Of a DNA stretch of 53,600 nt, positions 3,129 to 44,938 are shown in pieces (within the stretch, counting starts at the first letter, position 1; each line of letters begins with the position of its first letter). The position numbers and the translations under genes are program-made. Origin of the DNA: a virus; IMG/VR virus record IMGVR_UViG_3300047563_000009, positions 1 through 53,600 of that record. One strand, given 5' to 3'. Under the pieces are notes generated by a model that saw only the letters and a list, made by a program, of their open reading frames with translations, made no database searches and was not told where the DNA came from.

Positions 3129-3736
3129 CCCATTCCGACCCAGTTACGTTAAGAGCGTACCCAACTGGAGTGGGCTTCAATGAGTGTTCTTGTGATAAGC
3201 ATTTGGGAGACTGACCTATACCCAATCGTGCAAGGTCCAGACAAGAGCATTCATTGAAGTGTTAGATTGGTAGCGAGCGCTTCGCCCATTCCGTTGTTAA
3301 GTTGGAACCGAGATTAGCTCAACGCAACTTAGACGTGAGTGGGCTTCAATATGGATGTGCAATGGACGAACCCTTCTCCGATAAGAGAAGACAATTAGCT
3401 GGACGGACGTGCCCACTATTTCAGAACCAGGACCCATCACAGTAGTAGCGATTCACTACCGCGAAACAGTGTTGAATATTGGTAATGTTATTTGTGGAAG
3501 GGCACCAGTGAAAGTATATCCAGTAACAGTGGACGAAAAGTAGAGGTAGTGCTCGAAAAGTAGTTCCAGTCTGGTTTAAATACCAGAGTCCATATTGAAG
3601 TTGTGAGCACCTCAAAATGTGAAACCTCATTCTGCTGTAAAATACCTCAGCAGAGTGAGCTTCAATAAGCACGAGCTAGCGCGAAAGCCGAGGATACGAA
3701 CCTGTCAACGTTTGTTCTACAGGGTGCTTATTGAAG
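3129..3736 (+). ncRNA. three-module large structured RNA
   Basis: Three diverged copies of one module lie in series. Each begins with a helix YCATTC/GAGTGR (3129-3135 with 3168-3174; 3285-3291 with 3337-3343; 3626-3632 with 3653-3659) capped by a variable hairpin. This is followed at once by a long helix opening CTTCAAT and closing ATTGAAG (3175-3193 with 3241-3259; 3344-3355 with 3589-3600; 3660-3672 with 3724-3736). Helix sequences differ between copies while pairing is kept. Module 1 has an H-type pseudoknot in its terminal loop (TGGG/CCCA with GACC/GGTC), and module 3 may have one (GAAC/GTTC with CTG/CAG). Module 2 encloses about 230 nt with further hairpins. No long frame fits. It may be an ornate large RNA of the GOLLD/ROOL kind or something new. 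Confidence 0.75.
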
Positions 3737-3921
3737 TAGTTTTCTGAGTTTAGTAGTGATTATTTTTGCAAACTAAAATAAATGCAAACGATTCTGAAAT
3801 ACGAGTTGCAGCTTAATTAAGTTTAAGTTCTCTCCGAGGTCTTTCGACTCCTTGTTACCAAATTCGACGCAGTGGCCCGCTGTGATTAATAATGGGCATC
3901 ACAATAACAACTGAGGTATTT
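3737..3921 (+). other. leader between structured RNA and next gene
   Basis: A noncoding stretch with an A+T-rich hairpin (TTTGCA/TGCAAA near 3765-3790) and a 6-bp hairpin TGTGAT (3881-3886) with ATCACA (3898-3903). The loop of the latter carries a non-used ATG. The Shine-Dalgarno GAGG for the following gene is at 3913-3916, ten bases after the hairpin, so the hairpin could influence translation. Confidence 0.4.
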
Positions 3922-4429: not shown

Positions 4430-4613
4430 AGTCTGAATGGTACTTATAAACCAGTGGTATCTGCAACGGCAGATTAAACTAGGTTGCCTAAGAAGAAGTG
4501 AGTCGGGACTATCAATCCCGCGTCGAACCACGGCTGGAATATGGTGGCTCACTGATTCTACAAGCCTCGCAGTTTCTCGGACAACCTGCGTTATCAAAAC
4601 CGACCTAAATTAT
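4430..4613 (+). ncRNA. structured noncoding stretch with three-way junction
   Basis: Contains a hairpin ATCTGC/GCAGAT with AACG loop (4459-4474) and a compact three-way junction at 4497-4553. The closing helix of the junction is AGTGAG/CTCACT. Its two internal hairpins are CGGGA/TCCCG (4504-4520, 7-nt loop) and CCAC/GTGG (4528-4547). The layout recalls a truncated cloverleaf, but no acceptor or T arm is present. It lies directly upstream of the tRNA-like element and is probably co-transcribed with it. Confidence 0.45.
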
Positions 4614-41703: not shown

Positions 41704-41768
41704 TTGTGAGAAGGCTACGCCAACTTAATCCGTTTCATAAACTATCTCACAACTAATTGGAGCTTATC

Positions 41769-43733
41769 ATGACTATCACTACTCAGACTATGAAATCCGT
41801 TGTTCCTTCAATCGCTGCGTTAGTATTCCGTGCCAAAGAGAAACAGTCTTATCTTGAGCCACAGACTTGTGCACTGGCTGCGTTAGCCATGTTCCACATG
41901 ATGACGTCTTTCGTTCGTGATGACGTTGTACCAGCCATGTCGATGGTTGCACTTGCTGACTCTTCTATCCATCGTGCTAACTCTAGCAACAACGATATGA
42001 AGCAATATCACTACATCGATGGTGGCGTTAAGCTGATTGGTTTGGCTAAGCACTTTGGTTTCATCACCATGAACGAAGACAAGTCATTCCAGATGACAGA
42101 TGCATGGGTTGAACTTGTTACTACCAAAGACACTAGCATTCCATTCACTGTTCGTGTCACTGATGAGAATCGTCGTAAGCCATTTGTTAAAGGTGGCAAG
42201 GTTAAGCCTTCCAAGTTGCTCAAGTCTACAATTGAGTTCTTGCAGGACACTGAGTATCACGTTGACGCTTCAATGGTTGCAGTCATCAAGAAGGTGCTTG
42301 AACTCAAGCGTTTCAATGGTGAGCAGATGCCACTGGCAATTAAGCAAGAGGAACATGTTTGGAACAATGCTGTAGCAATGGCACTTCAAGATGTCCTGTT
42401 CTCTGATTACTTTGCTGACAATCGTGGTCGTTTGTATCACGTTGCTTGTGCTGGTCCAAATCCACAATCGAGTGACTTTGCTCGTTGCTTGTATTCTCAC
42501 AATGTTGAGAACTTTGTCAACAAGCTGAACGAAGATGGTTCAACTACCGAAGCATACAACATGTTCATTGCTGAACTTGATGATATCGCTGGTGGATATT
42601 GGAACAAGGCTTCCACTCTTACACGAGTAGCTCAAAACCCAGCAGGCTGGCTTTCTCGCATTCTTTCAATGAGCAAAGATGGTGTTGAGATTGAGGGTGA
42701 AATTGTCAAAGCTCCTAAGAAGCCATTCACCTATGTACGTCTGGCTCTGGATTGGTTCCAGTTTGAAACAACTGGTGCATGTGATTCTCGTGTAGGATTT
42801 GGCTTAGATGCTAAATGTTCTGGTACTCAGTATTTAGCATTCATTGCTGGCAATATGGAAATGGCTCGTGCAACTGGTCTGGTTGACAGTGAAACTAAAG
42901 CATCTGACCCATATCAGTTATCTCTGGTAGAGTTGATGAAACTGTTATCTAAATCATCAATGAATCCATCTAATGAGATTAAGGATGCATACCTCAACCC
43001 TAAAGCAGGTCGTAACTTTATCAAGACTCCATACATGGCAGTACAGTATGGTGGTGGTGTTGGTGCTTTAACTGGTAACAAAGACTTCTGTGATTATGTT
43101 GTCAACAATCTGGAAGTTGATATTGCCAAGCTGGCAGACTTTGCTGAACTTTGTGTTGATGCTGTACATGCTGCACTTGGTGAAAAGATTAACCTATTCA
43201 TCAACCAAACTATGGCTGCTGTGAAAGCTAAGTGTGATGCTCTTGCTAAACCTTACTTCACATACAAGCACACTGATGGTCTTACTGTTCTTAAACCTTG
43301 CTTCCCATCACGTGACATTTGTGAAGCATTCAGCATTCGTGTTGATTCACAAACTCGTGTTATCTTTGGTCAGCAAGTTGACAACAAACCTTGGACTATT
43401 CGTGAGAGCAATCCAACTCCTGAGGAATTCGTTCGCACCTTCGTTGTTAACTACATTCAGGGTATTGATGCATTGGTAGCACGTACTGTTGCCAAATATG
43501 CTAAAGCTGCTGGATTACGTGGATTCACTTCTATTCATGACTGTTTCCGTTGCTGCTTGGCAGATGCTCCTAAGATGATGGAAGTTATTCGTTTAGCTTA
43601 CATCGAAGTATTTGTTACCAACAATCAGTTCGAATCACTTAGCAAACAACTTGGTGGCATTAACATGTTCCACGAGAATATCGTAACAGAAGAATTGCTC
43701 AACTCTGAGCATGCATATTACTTCTGCCAGTGA
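41769..43733 (+). CDS. single-subunit DNA-dependent RNA polymerase (T7-like, compact)
   Basis: Encodes 654 residues from the ATG at 41769, with GGAG eight bases upstream; the TTG at 41757 is part of the ribosome site. Catalytic blocks in T7 order: DNRGRLYH (D217; T7 DWRGR), motif A DAKCSG (D347; T7 D537), motif B with K419 and Y427 at the same 8-residue spacing as T7 K631/Y639, and motif C IHDCF (D591; T7 D812). It is about 230 residues shorter than T7 polymerase, nearly all missing before the DNRGR block, so the N-terminal domain is reduced. It should transcribe middle and late genes from its own promoters. Confidence 0.95.
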   Translation: MTITTQTMKSVVPSIAALVFRAKEKQSYLEPQTCALAALAMFHMMTSFVRDDVVPAMSMVALADSSIHRANSSNNDMKQYHYIDGGVKLIGLAKHFGFITMNEDKSFQMTDAWVELVTTKDTSIPFTVRVTDENRRKPFVKGGKVKPSKLLKSTIEFLQDTEYHVDASMVAVIKKVLELKRFNGEQMPLAIKQEEHVWNNAVAMALQDVLFSDYFADNRGRLYHVACAGPNPQSSDFARCLYSHNVENFVNKLNEDGSTTEAYNMFIAELDDIAGGYWNKASTLTRVAQNPAGWLSRILSMSKDGVEIEGEIVKAPKKPFTYVRLALDWFQFETTGACDSRVGFGLDAKCSGTQYLAFIAGNMEMARATGLVDSETKASDPYQLSLVELMKLLSKSSMNPSNEIKDAYLNPKAGRNFIKTPYMAVQYGGGVGALTGNKDFCDYVVNNLEVDIAKLADFAELCVDAVHAALGEKINLFINQTMAAVKAKCDALAKPYFTYKHTDGLTVLKPCFPSRDICEAFSIRVDSQTRVIFGQQVDNKPWTIRESNPTPEEFVRTFVVNYIQGIDALVARTVAKYAKAAGLRGFTSIHDCFRCCLADAPKMMEVIRLAYIEVFVTNNQFESLSKQLGGINMFHENIVTEELLNSEHAYYFCQ

Positions 43734-43832: not shown

Positions 43833-44938
43833 AGTAACAGAATACGGAGACATTTCCGCATGACATATTGGAACTGGTTGCAAACAGATTCAGCATGTCA
43901 ACTTGAGTCAAAGTGTGATTACGTTTGGCAACGTAGAACTCCCTGAGTTTGGCCGCTCAGAGTTCCAGTCACCATGATGAGAGTAGGAACCTATTCGAAA
44001 CTGTTACTTCAAGTGTAGTAACTTGGCATTACCGAGGTTTGAGTGTGGTTGGTATCCTTCTGGCGTAGCGGATGTTCGCGGACTACGGAAAACACTCAGC
44101 ATGTCCAATTGTTCCAATATTGTCACAGTCCTATTATCAAGGCCCACCCACAAGCCGGGACTATTTAGACATGATTGGAACTTTTGGTACATGCGAACGT
44201 TTAGAGAATGAATTCGGTATCGGAGGAAAGTCCGAACAAAGCAGCAGGATTATTACGCCAGCAGCCACCGAAATTGAGCAACAAATATTGTGACAATATT
44301 GCCGCATTTGTGGCATGTAAATATCGTACAATATCCGCATGTTAGAATGTGGCAGATTCGTTAGAGGACTAATCACCTCGAAGATACGAGAGTTCACCAA
44401 TCTGGCATGTGGATTCGTTACGACAATTGTGACAATTTAAATCATGTAATATTGTAACAGTATTGTGCAAACCCGCATGAATACTGGGCTACAGCCAAGC
44501 GAAGGCTTTTCATCGCATGTAATATTTGTGACAATATTGGGATTTTTAAAAGATTAATTCTTTTTATTTATCTCTTGATGGTCGGTTTTTCTCACTTGTT
44601 TCTACTGGATTGAATGTGCCAAATACGTTCAAGATACTGAAATGAGTGGGAGGGATTAAACGTAATTAATGTGCATGTCATATTGTGACAATATTCTCCA
44701 TTTGGCGGAGTTTAACGTTACAATATTGGCATGTCATTTACGTCTAATTGCATGAAAGATAGGGCTAATTCTAAATGTTTATTGGTGACAGTAAGTATCT
44801 AGAATAAGCTCCAATTTATTCAACTTGATAGTTTGGCACGTATTGTGTCACATACTCCCTGATGCTTTAAGGTGGATTAAGGAACGAGAAAGCCTCCACA
44901 ACCGTCTGATGGGAGTTTAATTTAAATTAGGAGTTTAA
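43833..44938 (+). ncRNA. long structured noncoding region with palindrome array
   Basis: No convincing gene in 1.1 kb. Helices include GAACT-CTGAG/CTCAG-AGTTC (43936-43965), GTTACT/AGTAAC (about 44001-44020), CGGA/TCCG and the alternative TTCGG/CCGAA around 44215-44236, GCCGC/GTGGC (about 44301-44314), CCGCAT/ATGTGG (about 44335-44352) and AGCC/GGCT. Interspersed are eight ATATTGTnACAATAT-type elements, and more than ten GCATG(T) words often precede them. An A+T-rich stretch with long T and A runs is at 44541-44575. It may be noncoding RNA, a control region, a replication origin, or a mix. Confidence 0.5.
44116..44729. repeat. array of ATATTGTnACAATAT palindromes
   Basis: Near-palindromic elements at 44116-44128, 44284-44300 (perfect 17 bp), 44321-44334, 44425-44437, 44448-44464, 44521-44538, 44680-44694 (perfect 15 bp) and 44718-44729. 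Several are preceded by GCATGT. The spacing is irregular, more like operators than classical iterons. The pattern TTGTGACAA resembles sites bound by dimeric HTH regulators. No phage repressor gene is evident in the window, so the binder may be a host protein or one of the small unknown proteins. Confidence 0.75.

Follow-up and report, generated by a model that had tools for sequence, protein, structure and literature searches.

Nearly all bacteria possess trans-translation, on which several phages are known to depend. Bacterial tmRNA (ssrA; Rfam families RF00023, RF01849, RF01850 and RF04321) is among the closest described systems to the phage RNA reported here, the core of which likewise contains a resume-like site, a tag of the form AND...xAA-stop and pseudoknots after the tag. 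The core differs from bacterial tmRNA in that no tRNA-like domain, acceptor stem or P2 was found, its 5′ segment is reverse-complementary to tmRNA, its tag is devoid of E-N-Y, and neither Rfam nor ARAGORN calls it. Because the tRNA-like domain is missing, the RNA is by definition not a tmRNA, yet it appears to act on tmRNA and partly like it. One- and two-piece tmRNAs are also encoded by phages, including mycobacteriophage Bxz1, phage G and Melnitz (PMC4131195, PMC9004378). Like the core, these are phage-borne and encode a tag, and the two-piece forms found here share UAAAU before the tag; unlike the core, they possess a tRNA-like domain and ARAGORN recognises them, whereas the core carries an antisense segment instead. 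In mycobacteriophage DS6A, tmRNA is reduced to the tRNA-like domain (PMC4131195). Here too a phage carries part of a tmRNA that probably affects the tmRNA of its host, but the arrangement is the opposite of the core, with the tRNA-like domain kept and the message part absent.

Prophages produce antisense or sponge small RNAs, such as AgvB against GcvB. Compared from general knowledge, these resemble the core in being RNAs of mobile elements that pair with a host non-coding RNA, but the core differs in its putative target, tmRNA, and in carrying a conserved reading frame along with pseudoknots. GOLLD and ROOL RNAs are, like the present RNA, large, highly structured and phage-borne, whereas the present RNA matches neither covariance model and has variable modular arms and a small core. 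Rfam 15 has no description of it, and the literature covered, with bioRxiv largely outside, yielded no phage RNA antisense to tmRNA and no tmRNA-like RNA without a tRNA domain. From sequence comparison, we estimate a probability of about 0.55 that the RNA encoded here serves the phage to re-target host trans-translation.

A variable arm beside a conserved core

The window is the whole 53,600-nt stretch of viral DNA that was analysed. A sequence-only reading had described positions 3129-3736 as a large non-coding RNA built of three copies of one module, each consisting of a helix H1 with its hairpin and an adjoining long helix H2. The three modules are present where that reading placed them:

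3129-3259, plus strand: module 1; H1 3129-3135/3168-3174 (9 bp when extended); H2 3175-3193/3241-3259 (19 bp; strands CTTCAATGAGTGTTCTTGT/ACAAGAGCATTCATTGAAG)
3285-3600, plus strand: module 2; H1 3285-3291/3337-3343 (7 bp); H2 3344-3356/3588-3600 (13 bp); structured interior of ~230 nt
3626-3736, plus strand: module 3; H1 3626-3637/3648-3659 (12 bp); H2 3660-3672/3724-3736 (13 bp)

A large structured RNA is confirmed by a 661-nt fold of -214.3 kcal/mol, far better than dinucleotide shuffles (-174.1 ± 6.2 kcal/mol; z = -6.5; 0 of 20). Comparison of the H1 and H2 pairings also upholds the proposed internal covariation: module 3 shows the exchange of C-G for T-A in H1, and H2 has inner parts that are complementary within modules yet unrelated between them. 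Nor did Rfam give a match: no family reached gathering score in the module stretch, and neither the GOLLD nor the ROOL covariance model matched the module region at gathering score or at E up to 1. Orthologous sequence to module 1 is found in Mangalitsa, MLP1 and ST32, and the module 2 interior shows 77-82% identity in one comparison, and 77-80% in another, with Aeromonas phage phiA050, TH53 and Mangalitsa. Single modules are carried by Faunus, 4HA13, SSEM1 and Y2 (the last with an additional long hairpin) and by MLP1 and ST32, the latter two counted by eye after the script's H1 or partner pattern had missed them. Copy number ranges from one to three in Chaseviridae and is zero in other families, with the core always adjoining. 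Hence the three-module plan is real in the window but dispensable, as some relatives have a single module and others lack it.

A relaxed Rfam scan gave only two matches in this region, both toward the 3′ end of the module series (tmRNA_permuted, 3678-3816, E 0.085; alpha_tmRNA, 3727-3871, E 0.03), and these led to a conserved tmRNA-like core of ~160 nt, 3738-3897, with module 3 ending one base 5′ of it. The notion of a free-standing giant RNA akin to GOLLD or ROOL is therefore not supported: the modules are the variable 5′ arm, or front end, of a widespread, unannotated phage RNA, and its conserved, functional part lies just beyond the stretch to which the sequence-only reading had drawn attention.

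Anatomy and distribution of the core

The core comprises an antisense segment, a tag and two pseudoknots, an anatomy of which we are highly confident:

3738-3769, plus strand: antisense domain, AGUUUUC (3738-3744) plus GAUUAUUUUUGC (3758-3769), complementary to tmRNA on either side of the resume codon
3774-3783, plus strand: resume-site-like TAAAATAAAT, with U at -5, A at -4, a purine at -3 and a pyrimidine at -1, as in tmRNA (rules for comparison from PMC2481249)
3784-3816, plus strand: tag reading frame, GCA AAC GAT TCT GAA ATA CGA GTT GCA GCT TAA = ANDSEIRVAA*
3835-3867, plus strand: H-type pseudoknot a, stem 1 3835-3839/3850-3854, stem 2 3844-3847/3864-3867, with covariation
3869-3897, plus strand: H-type pseudoknot b, stem 1 3869-3872/3880-3883, stem 2 3875-3878/3894-3897, loop GTGATTAATAA

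A BLAST search with this region matched 49 phage records, in Chaseviridae and, around the tag, in Ounavirinae. With the Felixounavirus core as query, up to 692 records were matched at E up to 1, and in 253 of them the match covered 80% or more of the query. The hits fall in Ounavirinae, Ackermannviridae, Schitoviridae and several siphovirus groups; a gapped pattern applied to viral contigs gave 84 distinct cores of one type. The core thus occurs in several hundred phage records, spanning Chaseviridae, Ounavirinae, Ackermannviridae, Schitoviridae and P1, and among the matches listed it lies under no feature, adjoins tRNA-Ile or is labelled 'hypothetical protein'. In phage P1 the core is found at 68880-69085 of NC_005856, behind the C1-controlled ban promoters and between dmt and tRNA genes. 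An annotated dicF-like region of P1 (NC_005856 68791-68892; L386 2412-2513) ends about where the tag core begins. Through P1-like plasmids the core is present in 561 of 5,426 complete E. coli genomes (about 10%), and chromosomal prophages contain another core type at 149 chromosomal places.

The window tag, ANDSEIRVAA (10 codons plus stop), has the E-N-Y codons of the E. coli tmRNA tag, ANDENYALAA, replaced. In BLAST relatives the frame is kept while bases change, as in ANDSEMRVAA, ANDSEMRMVA and ANDNVFLAVA, and the tags of 13 fetched Felixounavirus-query matches include ANDDVVLMAA, ANEEMYLAVA, ANDNAYLAVA, ANDSEVLMAA, ANDAQFLAVA and ANDNEMRAAA. Across 118 distinct cores, 28 different peptides occur, all of which start with AND or ANE and all but one of which (VAP) end in A, and tag length is 10 codons in 116 cores; because some cores were chosen with loose filters on tag ends and on bases -4 to -1, these properties are partly built in, although the BLAST-found set also shows them. 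Forty-four distinct 33-nt tags yield 26 peptides; among 21 tag pairs one base apart, the difference falls at codon position 3 in 15 and is synonymous in 13, and the remaining two frames contain stops in 39 of 46 tags. To judge by its codons, this substitution pattern is that of a conserved, translated tag, which, as in tmRNA, has a resume-like site in front and a stop at its end. An AUG-initiated reading of the tag region (AUGCAAACG...) was rejected, since by eye it is not conserved between families.

Also as in tmRNA, pseudoknots follow 3′ of the tag, both of them H-type and with two-sided changes. For the first subtype (24 sequences), 99.7% of cells in three stems are paired and two-sided changes occur at 9 of 13 pairs; none of 500 shuffles comes near this pairing, which is destroyed when partners are slid. 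The second subtype (11 sequences) is 97.9% paired, with two-sided changes at 8 of 13. Pseudoknot a shows a two-sided change in all but 2 of its 9 pairs. For pseudoknot b, covariation was counted for stem 1, and stem 2, read by eye from the alignment, is complementary in relatives with varying length and register.

Complementarity to host tmRNA

The best duplex of the window pairs phage positions 3726-3770 with ssrA nucleotides 76-116 at -29.4 kcal/mol, compared with a mean of -14.8 and a minimum of -25.2 for shuffled sequences (0 of 200). The 5′ end, UAGUUUUCGU, is conserved and perfectly complementary to ACGAAAACUA, which in host tmRNA encodes D-E-N-Y. A second block exists in two types, either CUAUUUUU, matching the bases just 5′ of the host resume codon, or UUUGCGG-CUUUUUA, matching pseudoknot 1, and both fit ssrA in register. 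The antisense thereby reaches from the 3′ strand of tmRNA pseudoknot 1, or the A-run behind it, over the resume codon to tag codon 6. Among the bases so covered are those that set the frame, where A86 is critical and U85 and G87 contribute (PMC2481249).

As RNAduplex over the whole ssrA was noisy and allowed huge loops, local alignment and short-target duplexes were used instead. In 24 of 26 cores gathered without an antisense criterion, local alignment against the full 363-nt E. coli ssrA, a sequence identical to the annotated copies, put the best antisense site in one common place; this comparison is the unbiased test, because many members of a set of 32 non-redundant cores were gathered with a GTTTTC filter. 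For those 32, the mean best score was 42.6, against 30.9 for shuffled targets (s.d. of means 1.4); their tag and pseudoknot segments, at 29.9 and 28.0, gave no antisense signal. All sites of the 32 overlap ssrA 84-103, that of Mangalitsa (L002) marginally (8-85), so that 31 is the fair count. Core duplexes range from -25 to -50 kcal/mol and in every case surpass all 200 shuffles, with P1-like, Schitoviridae and siphovirus cores at -45 to -50 kcal/mol. An insertion splits the antisense of Mangalitsa and 4HA13, which local alignment missed, and in Alteromonas phage H4/4 the pairing with the tmRNAs known from Alteromonas is weak, a bulge being required. In many relatives, then, complementarity at a functional site of tmRNA exceeds chance, and the sequences make host tmRNA very probably the target of the phage RNA. 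All cores are homologous and the independent origins of the match accordingly few: at least two second-block types and one host-matched change.

That change concerns hosts with the tag ACGAAACUUAC, which make up 16 of 392 genomes in a single order. A search pattern built for the corresponding antisense hit four contigs, one of them a true member (L387) with the tag ANDSVYLAAVA and pseudoknots. Its antisense scores 52.5 against the best ACGAAACUUAC-tag host and 45 against E. coli, whereas that of its closest relative here, the E. coli-type L055, scores 45.5 and 51.5, respectively. The pair is suggestive of a host-matched antisense change, and suggestive only, as it is one case found with the motif it would confirm. 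A search with a Pseudomonas-type tmRNA antisense pattern gave chance hits only. The antisense target CGAAAAC is present in 0 of 46 phage tags, so the RNA would not silence itself. Duplex polarity is also fitting: the phage tag emerges toward host pseudoknot 1, with ~13 bases between the duplex end and the resume codon, and the spacing from pseudoknot 1 to the resume codon in tmRNA is 11-12 bases. Pairing would need to open, or compete with, tmRNA pseudoknot 1 and helix 5.

Mode of action, tRNA-like domain and alternatives

At its start the core is antisense to host tmRNA across the resume codon; directly 3′ of the antisense lie a second resume-like site, a tag AN(D/E)xxxxxxA-stop and the two conserved pseudoknots, with changes in tag codons 4-6 that preclude pairing of the phage tag with the antisense of the same RNA. 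We infer that in cells the core would anneal to tmRNA at this site and mask the host tag and the frame-setting nucleotides. Host alanyl-tmRNA with SmpB would still bring its tRNA-like domain to stalled ribosomes, for which reason the phage RNA would need none of its own, and the ribosome would resume on the phage tag, leaving stalled proteins with ends such as xAA, AVA or MVA instead of LAA. We give even odds to this specific scheme, in which an RNA acting in trans masks the host tag by pairing and supplies a phage tag via host alanyl-tmRNA and SmpB. If correct, it would represent a new kind of phage-host interaction, with an RNA that rewrites or silences trans-translation, and a new way of building one functional RNA out of two genomes, and it might serve as a tool for protein retagging. 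With the RNA present in laboratory phage P1 and about a tenth of complete E. coli genomes, the data suggest that phages as familiar as P1 may commandeer or rewrite a quality-control system universal to bacteria.

By ARAGORN, Rfam and the promoters at the core 5′ end, the cores contain no recognisable tRNA-like domain of their own. ARAGORN, run on the window and on relatives of many families, made no tmRNA call in cores save that of Mijalis, and Rfam at gathering score called neither tmRNA nor permuted tmRNA (RF04321) in any core of this family. The window match to the permuted model is sub-threshold (22.7 bits versus 47), and the upstream acceptor piece and the 5′ acceptor strand and D-loop before the tag that mark RF04321 were not found. 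Both programs do call true permuted tmRNAs in other phage contigs of the same scan. Such two-piece tmRNAs are present in IMG/VR contigs L010, L011, L016, L018, L029, L031, L095, L124 and L128, with tags including ANDESYALAA, ANDEVFALAA and ANDERFLMAA and a UAAAU resume site common to the core family. A hidden tRNA-like domain in the H1-H2 arms, downstream arms or tRNA arrays was rejected, relaxed ARAGORN giving noise, and T-arm-like stretches, present in some arms (L132, L141), are not conserved. In Felixounavirus (L008), a consensus promoter, TTGACA-17-TATAGT, lies at 1967-1995, six bases before the core (from 2002); in Caminolopintovirus, TTGACA-17-TAGATT ends eleven bases before it, and placement is similar by eye in Kolesnikvirus, Roufvirus and Bas77. 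No sigma-70 promoter of this kind was seen in the window. With a predicted sigma-70 promoter 6 to 11 bases before the core, the transcript would start with the core and leave no upstream room for a tRNA-like domain.

The ARAGORN tmRNA of Citrobacter phage Mijalis was judged an artefact, its tRNA-like stretch being ~530 bases upstream with three tRNA genes between. Moogle and Felix O1 have been reported with ssrA (PMC4319497, PMC4392139), which may be the same kind of call. The Ounavirinae tRNA array contains a circularly permuted tRNA-like stretch (Mijalis, L142 ~4527-4600; L007, between tRNA-Asp and tRNA-Lys) in the order T-arm GAAGGUUCGAUUCCUUC, ACCCUUC-GCCA, short loop, GAAGGGU and D-arm, which is either a permuted tRNA or a relic.

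The main rival to re-targeting is a pure anti-tmRNA sponge that blocks host trans-translation, in which tag and pseudoknots would be relics or shape-holders. The antisense does cover exactly the resume codon and frame-setting bases, and a tRNA-like-domain-only molecule such as that of DS6A inhibits tmRNA (PMC4131195), but the frame, the 10-codon length (116 of 118), the stop and the AN(D/E)...xA ends of the tag are kept over hundreds of phages, and a relic would not show mostly third-position change; we consider pure inhibition unlikely. Still less probable is a divergent two-piece tmRNA, in which the core would serve as coding piece and be complemented by an acceptor piece, unrecognised and encoded elsewhere in the phage, that bears the tRNA-like domain. 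Such a molecule would leave the antisense unexplained, and its coding piece would need a 5′ acceptor strand and D-loop for which promoters at the core 5′ end leave no space. Real two-piece tmRNAs of other IMG/VR phages have a similar UAAAU-GCN resume site and tag, and both the permuted Mijalis call with this tag and the ssrA reported for Moogle and Felix O1 point the same way, but ARAGORN and Rfam are silent in other families and the Mijalis call spans ~530 bases and three tRNA genes.

A self-standing, ornate GOLLD/ROOL-type RNA of three modules, as first proposed, is very improbable: size, strong folding and internal module covariation fit it, but the varying or zero module number in relatives, the ever-adjoining core and the lack of an Rfam match, even at E up to 1, do not. 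Re-targeting by the core is compatible with a further proposal that concerns the arms only, namely that both the H1-H2 arms and the arms found 3′ of the core in relatives serve as processing stems, for RNase III or a similar enzyme, and liberate the core from a polycistronic transcript, their apical cassettes being passengers. In Chaseviridae the upstream arm is made of one, two or three H1-H2 units and reaches up to the core; Schitoviridae, Carvajevirus and Ackermannviridae have a different long helix at this position, and phages with a promoter at the core have no upstream arm. Arms that abut the core in many phages, with a promoter in their place elsewhere, and a near-identical apical cassette shared by Carltongylesvirus, in its upstream arm, and Faunus, in its downstream arm, argue for processing stems, although the module 2 interior (230 nt, 77-82%) is too conserved for a mere passenger, and we hold this proposal as tentative, at somewhat less than an even chance. 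More broadly, the long arms beside the core are probably processing or stabilising stems with plug-in cassettes, the apical parts being exchangeable.

The cassette common to Carltongylesvirus and Faunus (L005, downstream of 2130) reads GGGAGG.AGGCCGAUGCCC...CGUGGCCCAGAC, and a related version is found in window module 1 (3194-3240); these caps are exchangeable RNA cassettes. Repeated long helices, ACAACAGGUAAGAGCAUU...AGUGCUCUUUCCGUUGU, occur 3′ of the core in many phages (L130, L132, L133, L137, L267), with T-arm-like tips in some. Elsewhere in the window, the 53.6-kb genome of which resembles Chaseviridae (Cleopatravirinae) phages, a motif at ~44200, GAGGAAAGUCCG, was considered as RNase P RNA and set aside as a resemblance without Rfam support. 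A gene for a single-subunit phage RNA polymerase (PHROG 414, E 9e-86) is located at 41757-43733, and the stretch 44000-44760 is non-coding, with many TATTGTNACAATATT inverted repeats and GCATGT motifs.
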